64,000 nt of DNA from Zwartia panacis (lineage in GTDB: Bacteria; Pseudomonadota; Gammaproteobacteria; Burkholderiales; Burkholderiaceae_B): assembly GCF_030410395.1 (NCBI RefSeq), contig NZ_JAUHHF010000001.1:124001-188000 (forward strand), given 5' to 3'. Shown here piece after piece: positions 25,011-33,442 of this stretch. The position numbers and the translations under genes are program-made. Under the pieces are notes generated by a model. That model did no database searches. It saw only the letters and a list, made by a program, of their open reading frames with translations, and was not told the DNA's origin. Each line of letters starts with the position of its first letter. Position 1 is the first letter of the stretch.

Positions 25011-25104
25011 GGAGGCGTGCCCGAGCGGCTGAAGGGGCTCCCCTGCTAAGGGAGTATATGCGCTAAAACGTGTATCCAGGGTTCGAATCCCTGCGCCTCC
25101 GCCA
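25011..25104 (+). tRNA. tRNA-Ser (anticodon GCT)
   Basis: The acceptor stem GGAGGCG (25011-25017) pairs with CGCCTCC (25094-25100), followed by discriminator G and an encoded CCA. The anticodon stem CTCCC/GGGAG encloses the loop CTGCTAA with anticodon GCT at 25045-25047. A long variable arm and the T-loop GTTCGAATC are present, all typical of class II tRNA-Ser reading AGC/AGU. The downstream accessory DNA suggests that the 3' end may have served as an integration site, but no second copy of the 3' end is visible in the window. Confidence 0.97.
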
Positions 25105-25296
25105 AGTAGTAAGTGTTTATGAGGCTCTTCAGGGGGTCAGTCGCAACGTGGTACCACTTGTGGTGCCAGTCTTGTAGGGGTATCAGCCGAATCCCTGGAG
25201 CAAAATCCCGCTTGTATGTCTGCCGCCAGACAGTTTGACCGACACATATCCAATACCTGAAAGTCGTGCCTTTCCACTTGAGACAAGGAGAACGGC

Positions 25297-25503
25297 ATGG
25301 GTAGCTCAACACAGTTTGACCAGGAATTGTTCGCAGAACAGCATGCCGATCTGATCTAGGCGCTTTCGGTATTCCGAGGCAAGGGCGACGACCAGGATAG
25401 CGAGGGCGCAGCCCTGAACATGCTCGGGCTACTGGCGCAGTACGGCTGCACAGACCTCATTCGTAGATCGTCAATTACAGCCTTGGGCGCGAAGCGTACC
25501 TAG
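25297..25503 (+). pseudogene. Small unknown ORF with good ribosome site, broken by an in-frame TAG
   Basis: An AAGGAG site at 25285-25290, six bases before the ATG at 25297, opens a frame that begins MGSSTQFDQELFAEQHADLI. It meets TAG at 25357-25359, then continues open for 47 codons (ALSVFRGKGDDQDSEG...) to TAG at 25501. The second half reads like real protein (balanced, acidic, then GLLAQYGCTDLIRRSS), so I take this as one gene of about 68 codons interrupted by an amber codon. The family is not recognised. Readthrough cannot be excluded. Confidence 0.45.
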
Positions 25504-25852
25504 GTCTAGGCATACAGCTGCTTGTTGACATTGCGTTCCCCAGTAAGGTTTTCTGATCGCCTGCCCAACGCCAGCCTTGTACTCGGTCCGTTGAGCGTAA
25601 GTGCTCGGAGGATGGGACTGCTGGTGCCACTTGAAGGAAATGCTGATCCGCCCCCTGGGGTAGCACCGCTCACCCGAGCTCTGATGGTTACCCCCTCACT
25701 CAGAAATTTTCAACAGTTTCAGACTTTCAGCTTACTCCCTCCCACCGCTCGACCTTGTCGGTGTCTCAACTAAGGTGATCACCAAGAGATGCTTGTCACA
25801 TCTGGCGCATGATGTTAAGTTTAGCTTGCCCCCAGAGCTCAGACCTGCCACC
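25504..25852. other. Non-coding or decayed stretch after the tRNA-Ser
   Basis: No frame here reads like protein. A + strand open frame at 25522-25773 is Pro/Ser/Arg-rich and looks spurious, as does a minus-strand one at 25475-25666. Probably remnants of inserted DNA next to the tRNA. I see no integrase, transposase or inverted repeats. Confidence 0.5.
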
Positions 25853-26191
25853 ATGATCTATGCCATCTACTTCGTTGCGTTCTATCTGGGCTTCTTAGCC
25901 TTTGCTCTGGCGCAGCTGCTTGATCGGCATAACGCAGCTAATCGGCCAGCAAATCCAGCATCGATGCGCTGGGCTGCGCGCTTTGGAGCTGCATGTGTTC
26001 TAGCGCTTACCATATTCGGGCTCTCGAAGTTCGCCTGGTACGTCCCATTGCTCGCATATCTATCCGTTGCGCTCACAGCAGGTACGGTTCGCTATCGAGC
26101 GCGCCGTTCCCCGAAAGCGCTAAGTATCGAGATCCTATGCGGCGCGAGCAGTGTATTTCTTACGATTCTCAGTTTCCAGCTGGTGGACTAG
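25853..26191 (+). CDS. Small inner-membrane protein, intact copy of a duplicated gene
   Basis: The 112-residue product has an N-terminal membrane segment (MIYAIYFVAFYLGFLAFAL), a basic loop (RHNAANRPANP), a second and third segment (about 45-82, with FGLSKFAWYVPLLAYLSVALTAG) and a fourth at the C-terminus. No known family. The frame opens at 25775, but the ATG at 25853 is preferred because a paralogue of exactly the same length, 339 bases, occurs at 28028. The two copies flank the ATPase-TOPRIM gene. A role with that gene is possible but unproven. Confidence 0.6.
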   Translation: MIYAIYFVAFYLGFLAFALAQLLDRHNAANRPANPASMRWAARFGAACVLALTIFGLSKFAWYVPLLAYLSVALTAGTVRYRARRSPKALSIEILCGASSVFLTILSFQLVD

Positions 26192-26460
26192 CCCAAGGAG
26201 TTGCGCATGTCACGTCCATCATCCAGCAACAAGTACTGTCAGGCAGGAAACGACCCGTTCCATTCACAGGCTTCCGCGAAAAGACTGCCCCAAAGCCGCC
26301 TCACAGCCGTCCAAATACTGTGGCTAATGGTAATTTCCTGTCAATGCCGATCCGGCTTCAGCATTGCAGTAACACGGGCTGGTTTGTGCGACTCGATCGA
26401 AAAGACGATACTCGTGCCCACGTTAGGATGACGTACTTAACAACCAAAAGATAATGCCCT
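26192..26460. other. Gap between the small membrane gene and the ATPase-TOPRIM gene
   Basis: Three + strand frames stay open for parts of this gap, but none has protein-like composition or a ribosome site that would make it convincing. The promoter of the ATPase gene should be here. The in-frame TAA at 26452-26454 shows that the ATPase cannot start further upstream without a frameshift. Confidence 0.4.
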
Positions 26461-27858
26461 ATGACGATAGACGAGTTGGTAAACGCGGCGAAATTCACTG
26501 TGCTGATCGGCAAGAACGGCGCTGGTAAAAGCACGCTGTTGCGCTCACTGAATGCTGGCGATCGGCCTCATATTAAGTACGTATCTCCCGAGCGAGGCGG
26601 AACGCTCAAATACGATCCAAACGTCGACAACAACATTAATTCCAATGAGGCGTGGCTTAAGCAAACTAGACAGACGAACAGGTTTGAGCAATTTCGCCAG
26701 CAAAGCGCTGCACAGTTCAGAAACCTTGAAACGGCAGTGCTTCGCGAGATCGAGAAAGAGGCCGAAAAACGTGCCGACTCAACATATACATTTGATGTCA
26801 TTCTTGAGCAGATAAACGAACTGCTTCCAGCAATTAGGATGATCCGCAACGACAAAGGTGGCTTCTCGGTCCAGACGAAGTCTGGACAGCCGCTTGATGA
26901 GGCGAATATATCCAGCGGTGAATCAGAGCTGATTGCGTTAGCCATCGAGGTGTTGGTGTTCTCACGCCAGTCAATGGCAAACAAGATGCTCTTGTTGGAT
27001 GAGCCTGACGTGCATCTTCATCCAGACTTACAGCAGCGTTTTACCTCGTTCGTAGAAACAGTCGCAGTTGCACATGATCTTCGCGTCGTTATTGCCACTC
27101 ACAGTACAGCAATCATTGGGGCCTTCTCGAAGAGCGCTGATCTTCAAATTGTTCCGATCTCAAAGAGAGATCAATCCGATTTCGCCACCTTCAGTCGGTC
27201 AGGGGTTTGCGAAGAAATTCTGCCAATTTTTGGCGCTCATCCCCTTTCGACTGCTTTCAATCGATCACCTATAGTGCTGGTGGAAGGAGACGACGATCGG
27301 CGCGTCTTAGAGCAAGTTATTCGTTCGGGTGGAGGTAGGTTTGCACTGGCGCCGTGCGTCGTTGGCAGTGTCACTGAACTTTCGGATTGGGAAGACTGGT
27401 TAAATCGGTTTCTCCCGGTCCTGTATGACACGCCAAAGGCCTTTTCCCTGCGTGACCTTGATGATGCTCAGGAGGCTGACATCAATGATCTCGACCACGT
27501 GCGTCGCATCCGATTGAACTGCTATGCAGTAGAAAACTTGCTTCTGTCCGATCAGGTGCTCACTGCTCACGGATTCAGTGCCGATGCCTTTAGGACTGCT
27601 CTGCAGGCACGCGTGGAACGTATTCCAGATCACAAATACACAGGTGCTTTGCGTGCTCTTGTTGATGACTTCGAGAACCGTAGGACTCGGAACATCAAAG
27701 ACGTTCGCAACATTCTTGTCGCTGAACTTGGTAGCAACAAACCGTGGGAAGTGCTATTAGGTCAGTTGATTGCGGCCGAGGTTGCGACCGTTAACCTAAG
27801 TGAACATTCCATTCAAACCTACCTCGGTCCAAAGGCCATGACATATCTCTTCCATTGA
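26461..27858 (+). CDS. AAA/ABC-type ATPase fused to a TOPRIM-like (DUF4435-type) domain; candidate anti-phage defence protein
   Basis: The 465-residue protein has two parts. Residues 1-260 are an ABC-type ATPase: Walker A GKNGAGKST (17-25), signature SSGES (151-155), Walker B LLLDEPDVHLHP (177-188) and H-loop His214. The central part is charged and helical. Residues 268-400 look like a TOPRIM nuclease: VEGDDD (274-279), SLRDLDD (329-335) and YAVENLLL (355-362), the last resembling DUF4435. This layout recalls OLD proteins and, more closely, a fusion of PARIS AriA and AriB. The usual N-terminal strand before Walker A is very short, so slight truncation is possible. The defence role is inference. 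Confidence 0.72.
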   Translation: MTIDELVNAAKFTVLIGKNGAGKSTLLRSLNAGDRPHIKYVSPERGGTLKYDPNVDNNINSNEAWLKQTRQTNRFEQFRQQSAAQFRNLETAVLREIEKEAEKRADSTYTFDVILEQINELLPAIRMIRNDKGGFSVQTKSGQPLDEANISSGESELIALAIEVLVFSRQSMANKMLLLDEPDVHLHPDLQQRFTSFVETVAVAHDLRVVIATHSTAIIGAFSKSADLQIVPISKRDQSDFATFSRSGVCEEILPIFGAHPLSTAFNRSPIVLVEGDDDRRVLEQVIRSGGGRFALAPCVVGSVTELSDWEDWLNRFLPVLYDTPKAFSLRDLDDAQEADINDLDHVRRIRLNCYAVENLLLSDQVLTAHGFSADAFRTALQARVERIPDHKYTGALRALVDDFENRRTRNIKDVRNILVAELGSNKPWEVLLGQLIAAEVATVNLSEHSIQTYLGPKAMTYLFH

Positions 27859-28027
27859 CGGTTCTCCGCGGACACTCTTGAATCGCGGAAGCTGCCGTTC
27901 GGGAATGTCAGCTCCTGGCCGAAACCGGCTGTTATGAACTCAGTTATGGCTTGATCTGACATACACTGTCTGATCAAGTTTGAGTTAGTGCATCTAAATC
28001 AATCTAAGACCTCTTAACCTGTCCATC
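27859..28027. other. Short intergenic stretch after the ATPase-TOPRIM gene
   Basis: GC-rich then AT-rich non-coding DNA with several short inverted segments (CCGTTCGGG...CCGAAACCGG) but no T-run terminator. I see no coding potential. Confidence 0.3.
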
Positions 28028-28366
28028 TTGATCTATGCCGTCTACATCGTTGCATTCAACCTTGGGCTGCTTGCCTACGTGATCGCGAGATTGATTAACC
28101 GGAAGTCACCGATACACCAGCCATTGAGACCTGCACCCATGCGCTTTAGCTCCTAGTTGGCTGGATTATGCGTGTTAGTGCTGATAGCCTACGGTTTCTG
28201 GAAACTGTCTTGGTACTTACCAATACTTGCTTACCTGTCTGTTTTCTTTACTGCTGGCACTATTGCACGCCGTGCTTCAAGATCCGATAAAGCTCCGGGA
28301 ATAGTGATCGCTTTCGCTGGAGTGAGCACCTTGCTGACAGTGCTCTTTATTTCGGTGACGCTCTAG
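28028..28366 (+). pseudogene. Broken paralogue of the small membrane protein at 25853
   Basis: Reading from TTG at 28028 gives IYAVYIVAFNLGLLAYVIA, parallel to IYAIYFVAFYLGFLAFALA of the upstream copy. The frame continues through PAPMRFSS to TAG at 28154-28156, then on with LCVLVLIAYGFWKLSWYLPI and SVFFTAGTIARRASRS, matching the paralogue to a stop at 28366. Both loci are exactly 339 bases long, so there are no indels, only one amber codon and an ATG-to-TTG start change. The piece from 28157 might still be made as a shorter protein. Confidence 0.65.
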
Positions 28367-28443
28367 CGCGCTGGGCTGTTAAGCCTCGCGGCTGGCCGCT
28401 CGAAGCATTGTGCCCTGCATAGGGCATTAGATAAAATGATCGC

Positions 28444-28947
28444 ATGACAAATCAAAACAGATCAAGCTACCGCAAGGGCGTTGACCTTACCCTTAAACAA
28501 CGTGCCTTCGTGACCATTTTGGTTAGGCAAGGCTGCAATCCGACGCAGGCGGCGCGCCAAGCGGGTTACGTTGAGCCTAAGGTTGCCTCGTACGACTTAC
28601 TACGCACCCCTCATGTCCAAGAGGCGGTTCGGCAAGAAAGGGCGAGGTATGTATCAGGAGACCTTGCTAACGTCGCCACCGGAACGCTAAGAGCGATTAT
28701 GATCGACGAGAATGCGCCGGCGTCTGCTCGCGTTGCAGCGGCACGAACTGCTCTGGAACTTGCTGGGGAGCTTGGATCGAGTAAACGTGACGTAGATAAC
28801 GATCGCCCATTGAACGAAATGACTGCCGATCAGCTGGCGCAACTCATTGATAAATGGCAGGGTGAGCGGTCAGAGCTGGCAAATACCGTCGACGCTGATG
28901 ATGTGACTATGCCTTGTGCAGCTGACTCTTCGCAACTCCTTCAATAG
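28444..28947 (+). CDS. Phage terminase small subunit
   Basis: The 167-residue product resembles small terminase proteins, which recognise phage DNA for packaging: an N-terminal helix-turn-helix (TLKQRAFVTILVRQGCNPTQAARQAGY, residues about 16-42), SYDLLRTPHVQEAVRQER, and a conserved helical block ARVAAARTALELAGELG (about 98-114). The tail is acidic. No large terminase, portal or capsid gene is near, so it is an orphan of a decayed prophage or a cargo of a satellite-like element. Its short downstream partner is at 28984. Confidence 0.75.
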   Translation: MTNQNRSSYRKGVDLTLKQRAFVTILVRQGCNPTQAARQAGYVEPKVASYDLLRTPHVQEAVRQERARYVSGDLANVATGTLRAIMIDENAPASARVAAARTALELAGELGSSKRDVDNDRPLNEMTADQLAQLIDKWQGERSELANTVDADDVTMPCAADSSQLLQ

Positions 28948-28983
28948 TCTGGTTAACAACACCGGACAAGGCAGGGTTTTGTT

Positions 28984-29160
28984 ATGGGCGAGCCAATATG
29001 GCCTGACGATGCGACACCTGAGCAAATAGCTCGCATCACCCGCAAGGTGGACGGATTCTTAAAGATGAGACCACCTCGCAAGGCGACCCCTGCTAAGGTT
29101 GAGCCAGGTGTACTGGTGCAACCCACTACCAATGCTAAACAGTCAAAGCCCAAGGGTTAA
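28984..29160 (+). CDS. Small hypothetical protein downstream of the terminase gene
   Basis: A 58-residue open frame that begins MGEPIWPDDATPEQIARIT and ends in a Lys/Pro/Thr-rich tail. It lies 36 bases after the terminase gene in the same direction, with an AAGG-type site in the leader. It is Pro- and Lys-rich, with no membrane segment or known motif. Probably part of the same phage-derived unit. Moderate confidence that it is real because the N-terminal 35 residues read like a folded helix. Confidence 0.45.
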   Translation: MGEPIWPDDATPEQIARITRKVDGFLKMRPPRKATPAKVEPGVLVQPTTNAKQSKPKG

Positions 29161-29848
29161 GATCCGAAGTCTGTCTATCCTTGCCTCTGAAACAAAATTT
29201 TTACTGTGGTTTAGTGTCAATTACGCCTTCGTCAAATTGTCAAGAAAATTAAGTACGTACAGGTGTTTTTTTATTTTACATACCCCAAAAGCATATCCAA
29301 AAATATCGACTTAATTTCAAAGCGGTATTGCTTTTAGAACCAGTCTCTTTTGCTTTTTGTTTGCGAAGATGTTGCGTTTAGTCTCAGCAGTTTGGGCTAT
29401 TTGTACCTCCCCTTGTTGATTTTATCCAAACGACAACCCATAGTACCAACCTCCAAAAATCGGTTTGGGTCCCATCTTGCTACCTTTACACTACGTTCAG
29501 CTCAAAAAAAATTTGATTGTGAAAATTTGTGTAGCAATCCAACTTAAATAGCAAAGTGTTGGGCCTGAGGAAATTCTAGTTAGGATGATACGGTTCAATC
29601 ATTCGGACATCTCTCTCAGCAATGTGAGTGTGATAAGAGCTTTGTATTTTTAAGACGCATTACGCACGTGTCTCTTTCAGATCACTCATGACAAAAAAAT
29701 CGATTGAAAAAAGGCAGCATTATGTGTGAATATTGATTGAAAATATTGATGCATAAACGTCAAATTAAACGATTTTGAATCGCTGCATTTTTAGAAAATT
29801 TATCGATCAAACCATTTCCACAAGCCGTACCACCCACGAAAAAAATGA
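29161..29848. other. AT-rich intergenic region, right side of the phage remnant
   Basis: About 690 bases with base composition clearly lower in GC than the core genes. Short open frames at 29099-29314 and 29350-29547 lack ribosome sites and look random. A GTACGTAC palindrome is near 29250. No terminator or transposon ends are recognised. The composition shift starts here and continues through the secretion locus. Confidence 0.4.
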
Positions 29849-29865
29849 CTTAAGTCTCCGTTAAG
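29849..29865 (+). promoter_or_regulatory. QseB/PmrA-like direct-repeat box upstream of the regulator operon
   Basis: CTTAAG (29849-29854), five bases, then GTTAAG (29860-29865) follow the pattern YTTAAK-N5-YTTAAK known for PmrA/QseB-class regulators. It sits 34 bases before the cytochrome b561 gene. A TTAGAATATAAA stretch at about 29874-29886 could supply the -10. The response regulator encoded two genes downstream belongs to this class, so autoregulation is likely. Confidence 0.55.
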
Positions 29866-29898
29866 TTTTGAATATTAGAATATAAAAATATCTTAATA

Positions 29899-30489
29899 AT
29901 GTTGATGGAAACAAACTTGAACACATCTTCTGCCGCTTTAATTAAAAAAAGAAATCGTTTTTCAAGTATCAGCATCGGGCTACATTGGTTAATGCTCCTC
30001 CTTCTTGTTGCTGTGTATGCGACGATTGAACTCAAGGGTTTTTTTCCTAAGGGCGGAGATGTGCGGCAAGCCCTAAAACCCTTGCACTCAGGATTAGGTA
30101 TTACGATCTTGATGCTTGTAATAATACGTATTACTTACAACGCCTTTCAAGAGTCGCCAGCGATTATGCCCAAGCCGCCGCAATGGCAGCTCTTTTCTAG
30201 CAGAATGATGCACTACGTACTTTATTTGTTCTTGGTTGTCGTTCCTGTTGTTGGTTGGCTTATGTTGAGCGCTAAAGGAAAACCAATTGCGTTTTTTGGG
30301 TTTGAGCTACCTGCGTTGATTGGACCGGATCGCGCTTTTGGAAAGCGACTTGAAAATCTTCACGAAACACTTGCTCAAGCTGGTTATTTTTTAATTGGTG
30401 CACACGCAATCGCTGCATTAGTTCACCATTACGTATTGCATGACAATACTCTTATTCGCATGCTGCCTAAATTTAACAATGGTAAATAA
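29899..30489 (+). CDS. Cytochrome b561-family membrane protein
   Basis: Di-haem, four-helix inner-membrane electron-transfer protein of 196 residues. Likely haem ligands are His29 (GLHWLML), His63 (PLHSGLG), His155 (LHETLAQ) and His169 (IGAHAIAAL), placed on four hydrophobic helices as in bacterial CybB. It may pass electrons from quinol or serve as a redox sensor. Two starts are possible (29899, or 29905 two codons later). The response regulator starts two bases after its stop, so this gene leads a three-gene operon with the two-component system. Confidence 0.85.
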   Translation: MLMETNLNTSSAALIKKRNRFSSISIGLHWLMLLLLVAVYATIELKGFFPKGGDVRQALKPLHSGLGITILMLVIIRITYNAFQESPAIMPKPPQWQLFSSRMMHYVLYLFLVVVPVVGWLMLSAKGKPIAFFGFELPALIGPDRAFGKRLENLHETLAQAGYFLIGAHAIAALVHHYVLHDNTLIRMLPKFNNGK

Positions 30490-32872: not shown

Positions 32873-33442
32873 ATGAGCCGTTACGAGAATGAACGAGATG
32901 ACGACCGCTACGAGCGCGATGATGATCGCTATGAGCGTTATGAGCGCGATGATGATCGCTATGAGCGTTACGAGCGTGATGATGATCGTTACGGTGATAG
33001 TGATGACAGGCGTTATGCTTCAACGCCAAATACGCCAGCTAGTACTGCTCGCTATGCTGAAATCGATGACGATTATGATGGTCAAGCCTTTCGTTTATAC
33101 ATGGCTGCGCTAGATCGCACTCCGGATCCAACTGGTCTCGCAAACTGGACTAATTTGTTGCGTAGTGGTGCTGATCTAGACGATGTGGCTAGAGGTTTTG
33201 TAACCAGTACAGAATTTCAATCCCGATATGGTGATTTGGATGACAGCGAGTATGTCACTCAACTGTACCTCAATGTGCTTAATCGCTCCCCTGATGCGTC
33301 GGGCCAAGCAAATTGGATTGCTCAGTTAGAGTCTGGTGCAACACGCGAGTCGGTATTAATTGGATTTTCAGAATCTACAGAAAATCGCTTGCAAGCAGAG
33401 GCACTTGTAAATGGTGTCGATTATCAAGCTTGGGTAGGATAA
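32873..33442 (+). CDS. DUF4214-domain protein with charged tandem repeats; predicted type I secretion cargo
   Basis: The 189-residue product has no signal peptide. Residues 1-48 are a highly charged low-complexity stretch built from ERDDDRY units, four copies with ERY spacers. Residues about 70-185 form DUF4214-type helical repeats with RLYMAALDRTPDPTGLANW and QLYLNVLNRSPDASGQANW, a domain common in large secreted adhesins and glycan-related proteins. It lacks glycine-rich RTX nonapeptides. One base separates it from the TolC-like gene, so the operon couples it to a complete type I exporter. That it is the cargo is inference from this linkage. Confidence 0.78.
   Translation: MSRYENERDDDRYERDDDRYERYERDDDRYERYERDDDRYGDSDDRRYASTPNTPASTARYAEIDDDYDGQAFRLYMAALDRTPDPTGLANWTNLLRSGADLDDVARGFVTSTEFQSRYGDLDDSEYVTQLYLNVLNRSPDASGQANWIAQLESGATRESVLIGFSESTENRLQAEALVNGVDYQAWVG
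32891..32992 (+). repeat. Tandem repeat encoding ERDDDRY units
   Basis: The core is a 30-base direct repeat (units 32912-32941 and 32942-32971 differ at one base), flanked by partial copies at 32891-32911 and 32972-32992. The near identity of the two full units implies recent duplication, and copy number could vary between strains without changing the frame. Confidence 0.85.

Follow-up and report, generated by a model that had tools for sequence, protein, structure and literature searches.

The window analysed here is a 64,000-nucleotide stretch of the Zwartia panacis genome (positions 124,001 to 188,000 of contig NZ_JAUHHF010000001.1), and all coordinates below are counted from its first letter unless a family locus is named. 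The gene of interest lies downstream of lysC and then of tRNA-Ser(GCT). Its open reading frame is intact, running through 465 codons from an ATG start, with an in-frame stop 9 nucleotides 5' of that ATG. The features referred to in the text are the following; residue numbers are those of the window protein, and invariance refers to an alignment of 33 family members.

25011..25104, forward strand: tRNA-Ser(GCT), found by ARAGORN, the left edge of a variable region; also conserved in congeners, where the DNA that follows is unrelated
26461..27858, forward strand (stop codon included): coding sequence of a 465-residue single-chain ABC ATPase-TOPRIM protein, from homologues, alignment and model
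26461..27180, forward strand: ABC-type ATPase domain, residues 1-240, from Pfam AAA_21 and AAA_15, the model, and fold matches to PtuA, AriA, OLD and ABC ATPases
26509..26532, forward strand: Walker A GKNGAGKS, residues 17-24; G17, N19, G20, G22, K23 and S24 invariant
26908..26925, forward strand: ABC signature ISSGES, residues 150-155 (SSGES, 151-155); S151-E154 invariant
26986..27006, forward strand: Walker B MLLLDEP, residues 176-182 (LLLDEP, 177-182); L177-P182 invariant, within an invariant run L177-V184
27100..27102, forward strand: H-loop histidine 214; T213-H214-S215 invariant
27193..27855, forward strand: AriB-like TOPRIM domain, residues 245-465; modelled alone at pLDDT 90.3, best solved folds AriB 8ux9_A and 8v46_D
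27283..27297, forward strand: TOPRIM motif 1 EGDDD, residues 275-279; E275, G276, D278 and D279 invariant, E275 in register with AriB E26
27454..27462, forward strand: TOPRIM motif 2 DLD, residues 332-334; D332 and D334 invariant, aligned to the AriB DGD
27532..27537, forward strand: EN motif, residues 358-359, both invariant; aligned to the IEN of AriB and DUF4435 proteins, with a DxD-EN spacing of 26 residues comparable to that of compact DUF4435 fusions

The first-pass annotation, made from the letters of this stretch, had described one 465-residue chain joining a full ABC ATPase to a TOPRIM half, and Pfam, the motifs and the fold match all bear it out. Walker A, signature and Walker B, as well as VEGDDD (residues 274-279), SLRDLDD (329-335) and YAVENLLL (355-362) in the C-terminal half, lie exactly where it had put them, with their key residues invariant across the 33 members. 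It had also proposed profile searches, with divided results. The protein exceeds both Pfam cut-offs for the ATPase (AAA_21, 2e-19, 71.1 bits against a cut-off of 27; AAA_15, 4e-18, 66.5 bits against 32.1), whereas the cut-off for DUF4435 (PF14491) was not reached: no match to the window protein appeared even at E <= 1, and none anywhere in its own genome. PF20469, the OLD-like TOPRIM family, likewise gave no Pfam match to the window protein at E <= 1, and it is not among the matches listed for the 33-member set (25 of 53 families). Among the 25 NCBIfam families listed for the window protein, none stood above its cut-offs. The top PADLOC profile, with 8.6e-30 over residues 74-367, is that of fused AriAB.

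The full chain, modelled by AlphaFold2 with the family alignment as input, reached a pLDDT of 88.9 and a pTM of 0.82, and the ATPase half of the model resembles the ATPases of retron/Septu PtuA, AriA, OLD, SMC/Rad50 and ABC transporters. For the C-terminal half, modelled separately, the best solved folds are both AriB of PARIS (8ux9_A, Z 10.5 over 181 residues; 8v46_D, Z 9.9 over 186 residues), followed by Pyrococcus PH0156 (Z 8.0), the OLD C-terminal domains (Z 6.0-6.4), GajA (4.8) and retron Eco2 (4.4). With AriB at the head of these matches, the C-terminal half is a TOPRIM domain, and one of the AriB sort, as the earlier reading of this half as TOPRIM had it. A search of the PDB with a sequence-only HMM of the same half gave no credible match. 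DUF4435 is nevertheless perceptible below threshold in the family, with 18 of the 33 members matching at E <= 0.1 and a best value of 5.2e-6; in hhalign, the TOPRIM half alone matched AriB at a marginal E of 0.019 (the best of 30 shuffles gave 0.032) and compact DUF4435 proteins at 0.0012.

The location of the gene had been described as tRNA-linked accessory DNA next to a phage terminase gene, and the first part of this description holds well. Some part of the lysC-tRNA stretch is present in 30 of the 31 genomes of the genus that were searched, while beyond tRNA-Ser(GCT) (25104-29900) each congener with a contig long enough to follow has different DNA, which marks a hypervariable, tRNA-linked integration site. 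Some congener contigs end shortly after the tRNA gene. A search of 100 relatives, about 30 congeners among them, returned no full-length relative of the window gene, and no att-like direct repeat of the 3' end of the tRNA was found in the window. Upstream of the gene stands an intact gene for a small protein with two predicted transmembrane segments (25775-26191) and downstream a broken version of that gene (28023-28366), so that a repeated membrane-protein gene brackets it; 60 related genomes contained no relative of either copy. The broken copy carries 3 stops and is 43-52% identical to the intact one. The terminase gene (28444-28947) is a genuine Terminase_2 small-subunit gene (33.2 bits, cut-off 26.1), but it is an orphan: no other recognisable phage genes occur in its near surroundings. 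Farther on, at 32873-33442, lies a gene for a DUF4214 protein whose N-terminus carries a long acidic-aromatic repeat (RYERDDDRYERYERDDD).

Relatives of the protein were collected in a genome-wide scan with the window protein and its Escherichia coli homologue, which gave more than 30 sequences, mostly full-length and 33-80% identical, from Pseudomonadota, Cyanobacteriota, Verrucomicrobiota, Actinomycetota, Bacteroidota and one Parcubacteria MAG. The 33 aligned members represent at least six bacterial phyla, although several of the records are MAGs and could be taxonomically misassigned; this census is a lower bound, because the scan relied on two strict peptide patterns. Besides the motifs listed above, the family has a tail motif, KPWEVxxGQ, whose W429-E430 is invariant. 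The nearest relatives of the window protein are two Gallionella copies (80% and 78% identity), with which the similarity at the DNA level is confined to the gene and ends at the gene ends. Synonymous sites are saturated in these comparisons at a non-synonymous proportion of 0.11 (dN about 0.12), so that the protein is under strong purifying selection; these values, together with the AAA_21 match of 2e-19 and the 80% identity to a Gallionella protein, place the reading frame far beyond chance.

The E. coli homologue, WP_000868467.1, is 36% identical to the window protein and occurs in 26 of 5,426 complete E. coli genomes; in strain D8 it is flanked by yfgI and guaA, with a transposase remnant adjoining. 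The family gene stands 3' of guaA, tail-to-tail with it, in both E. coli (L018, 20075-24691) and Vreelandella glaciei (L048, 9941-13185), which suggests a guaA-side insertion site common to the two families. In the family tree the phyla are intermixed, and integrases lie close to several copies. The gene spreads laterally and alone, and its inheritance is patchy. Damaged copies were also seen, one broken by an in-frame stop in Sediminibacterium (L034, 9900-11404) and, in Sphingobium (L052, 8807-11131), one split by an insertion of transposase-like DNA. The collection of phage genomes yielded a partial match to the ATPase and no close homologue of the window protein. In the plasmid collection the top full-length match was to an E. 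coli record of 4.9 Mb, which is evidently chromosomal, and the other full-length match, from Gloeobacter, is distant (24%). Matches to the family exist among viral contigs; one of these, L069, corresponds to the yfgI-guaA locus of E. coli, so that the viral origin of that match is not clear. A literature search by the E. coli protein accession returned no paper, and the literature searched, which left out most subscription papers, contained neither a description of this clade nor an experiment on any of its members.

When the neighbours at 34 loci were clustered at E 1e-8 and 1e-3, no partner gene was shared among them, nor was any small membrane protein shared family-wide. What recurs is limited to integrases, scattered common enzymes and the guaA-guaB pair of the E. 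coli and Vreelandella copies. A small upstream protein is common to two loci (L027 and L028) only, with a predicted membrane segment in the latter. With no recurring partner family at these loci, the gene is stand-alone. Most copies sit among ordinary chromosomal genes, and among 95 near neighbours known defence genes were found at about 3 of 32 loci: SspB/SspC next to the Sediminibacterium copy (L034), an AIPR/AbiU gene probably at L037, judged by size and sequence, and one match resembling Dsr1 whose locus is unassigned. The proposal that this is a defence protein accordingly keeps its plausibility from homology and patchy spread, whereas enrichment near other defence genes, which had been expected along with it, is weak.

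How the family is related to PARIS was examined with DUF4435 proteins from 398 genomes, some of them in two-gene AriA/AriB pairs and others single chains about 550 residues long, and with two fused AriAB proteins of about 700 residues. The profiles of the family, of the compact chains and of AriA/B find one another in hhalign at E 5e-20 to 2e-22, so the three groups are homologous. The acidic motifs of the family fall in the same register as those of the AriB homologues, where E275 is by position the E26 glutamate of AriB. In AriB the change E26A abolishes tRNA cleavage, and the active site is a two-metal one (PMC12409363). The proportions of the chains are nevertheless different. From Walker A to signature the window protein has 134 residues; the compact chains have about 150, the fused protein L072 has 292, and two-gene AriA has about 243-346. 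The EN motif is followed by 108 residues, against mostly about 161-181 elsewhere, and the DxD-EN distance of 26 residues is shared with most compact chains. In a maximum-likelihood tree the family forms a clade with support of 100/100, separate from the compact DUF4435 chains (100/99) and from AriA plus AriB (97/93), with long branches meeting at the deep joins. All 33 members match the PADLOC AriAB model, but the window protein scores 92-102 bits where true AriAB proteins score 408-563. The description of the protein as a smaller version of AriA and AriB in one chain therefore needs qualification: it is one chain, with an AriB-like fold and AriAB as its top PADLOC profile, yet it is not a mere merger, given the absent insertion, the shorter tail, the unmatched DUF4435, the lower scores and the clade of its own.

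The gene is intact, its active sites are invariant, its nuclease half is AriB-like, and it consists of one chain with no partner, kept under purifying selection and patchily spread. From these features we consider it probable that the gene stands alone, spreads horizontally and encodes a compact ABC ATPase-TOPRIM nuclease, whose most likely role is that of an anti-phage effector of the abortive-infection type, although both phage defence and the target nucleic acid of the family are read by us from sequence and homology. In such a mechanism, binding of ATP would pair the ATPase heads and hold the TOPRIM dimer, tethered to them, in an inactive state; a trigger made by the phage would alter the state of the ATPase; and the putative two-metal TOPRIM site (E275, D278/D279, D332/D334 and E358) would then cut nucleic acid, with RNA such as tRNA a likelier substrate than DNA, by analogy with AriB, the cleavage halting growth or phage replication. 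In two-gene PARIS, a hexamer of AriA sequesters the AriB effector until a trigger frees it, and tRNA-Lys is cleaved. With sensor and effector in one chain, such release is impossible, and activation here would have to be a change within the complex. It is tempting to go further and to see in the family a minimal one-gene immunity, self-sufficient in 465 residues that combine sensing, an ATP switch and AriB-type cleavage of RNA (tRNA), with a trigger and an RNA target unlike those of PARIS; this fuller version we hold only tentatively and think rather doubtful. No clear equivalent of the AriB lysines K60 and K64, which hold the anticodon loop of the tRNA (PMC12409363), is seen in the family alignment, so that any recognition of tRNA by the family must differ from that of AriB.

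Other explanations of the same data have to be considered. The protein could be a stand-alone nuclease of the Class 1 OLD type that cuts DNA rather than tRNA and protects against phages or other invading DNA. A single gene with no conserved neighbours is what defines Class 1 OLD, whose genes also show weak enrichment next to defence genes (PMC10568477); the OLD C-terminal domains rank next in fold behind AriB and PH0156, and the family profile matches OLD 6p74 and GajA in the ATPase half and just past its end. However, AriB fits the fold clearly better than OLD (Z 10.5 against 6.4), the members match DUF4435 and not PF20469 among the families listed, and the 134 residues from Walker A to signature offer scant room for the OLD dimerisation insert, which makes this reading unlikely. 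We find it harder still to accept that the whole family is true PARIS, that is, a fused AriAB shrunken by divergence, with an Ocr-like anti-restriction trigger and cleavage of tRNA-Lys. Its attraction is the AriAB profile at the top of the PADLOC search, the AriB fold of the C-terminal half and the fact that single-gene ATPase-DUF4435 fusions have already been counted as PARIS (Rousset et al. 2022, PMC9122126); the missing AriA-type insertion and shorter tail, the difference in AriAB scores, the separate clade and the want of a clear equivalent of the anticodon-loop lysines all speak against it, and we judge it very improbable.

The last alternative abandons phage defence altogether and makes this an accessory gene for housekeeping or for the maintenance of an element, through control of the chromosome or cell cycle or through stabilisation of a mobile element. 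A role outside defence is known for a related protein, the OLD-class ATPase Cran1, which takes part in the progression of the archaeal cell cycle (PMC12796447), and the prevalence of family copies among ordinary chromosomal genes would agree with this reading. On the other hand, a host role is ill-suited to a gene found so rarely in E. coli and absent from all the congeners searched, solitary copies at unrelated sites are better understood as selfish or defence cargo, and broken or split copies do occur; this explanation, too, seems improbable. An anti-phage ATPase-TOPRIM nuclease thus remains the reading that we prefer, and it touches on a question that a review of the OLD proteins names as open, whether a lone ATPase-TOPRIM gene can defend by itself; the same review leaves the class of fused AriAB open (PMC10568477). 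With its native E. coli copy, the family would be a compact test of both, of defence by a single ATPase-TOPRIM gene and of fused AriAB as a class of its own; should the target be tRNA, the family would show that an AriB-type nuclease can be controlled without the large AriA body.

Compared with known systems, the protein shares its ABC ATPase core with Gabija GajA and with the retron OLD/PtuA ATPases, and its TOPRIM domain with GajA and Eco8. It belongs to neither system as they are known: no helicase gene adjoins it as in Gabija, the flanking reading frames being those of the two-transmembrane protein and the terminase small subunit, and the whole genome gives no match to a reverse transcriptase (RVT_1), as a retron (Class 3 OLD) would require. 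IbfA/HEC-04 of plasmid R64 is another solitary ABC ATPase-TOPRIM gene, with a measured anti-phage effect (PMC12111858), but it can be aligned with the family only from signature to Walker B (80 columns of the ATPase in hhalign), and the TOPRIM halves are without detectable similarity (E 0.19), so it was set aside as a homologue. The Class 1 OLD proteins (P2 Old and T. scotoductus OLD; PMC10568477) are alike in being encoded by a solitary gene with an N-terminal ABC ATPase and a C-terminal TOPRIM domain, and unlike it in a fold that, in our family, is closer to AriB, and in an ATPase that leaves little space for the OLD dimerisation insert. With PARIS the family has in common an ABC ATPase coupled to a TOPRIM nuclease, AriB as the nearest solved fold, and E, DxD and EN motifs in register; it differs in lacking the long AriA insertion, in a tail some 55-70 residues shorter, and in being one 465-residue chain in its own clade, with the window protein below the DUF4435 cut-off. 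The compact single-chain ATPase-DUF4435 proteins of about 550 residues (L104, L107, L110-L114 and L116) have the same order of motifs, an early Walker A, in most cases the same DxD-EN distance of about 26 residues, and a profile-profile match of E 5.5e-20 over 332 columns, yet they form a separate clade, reach the DUF4435 cut-off and carry tails of their own (133-174 residues) without the KPWEVxxGQ motif. The family is a separate single-gene clade, kin to these known single-chain ATPase-DUF4435 fusions and not AriA simply fused to AriB.
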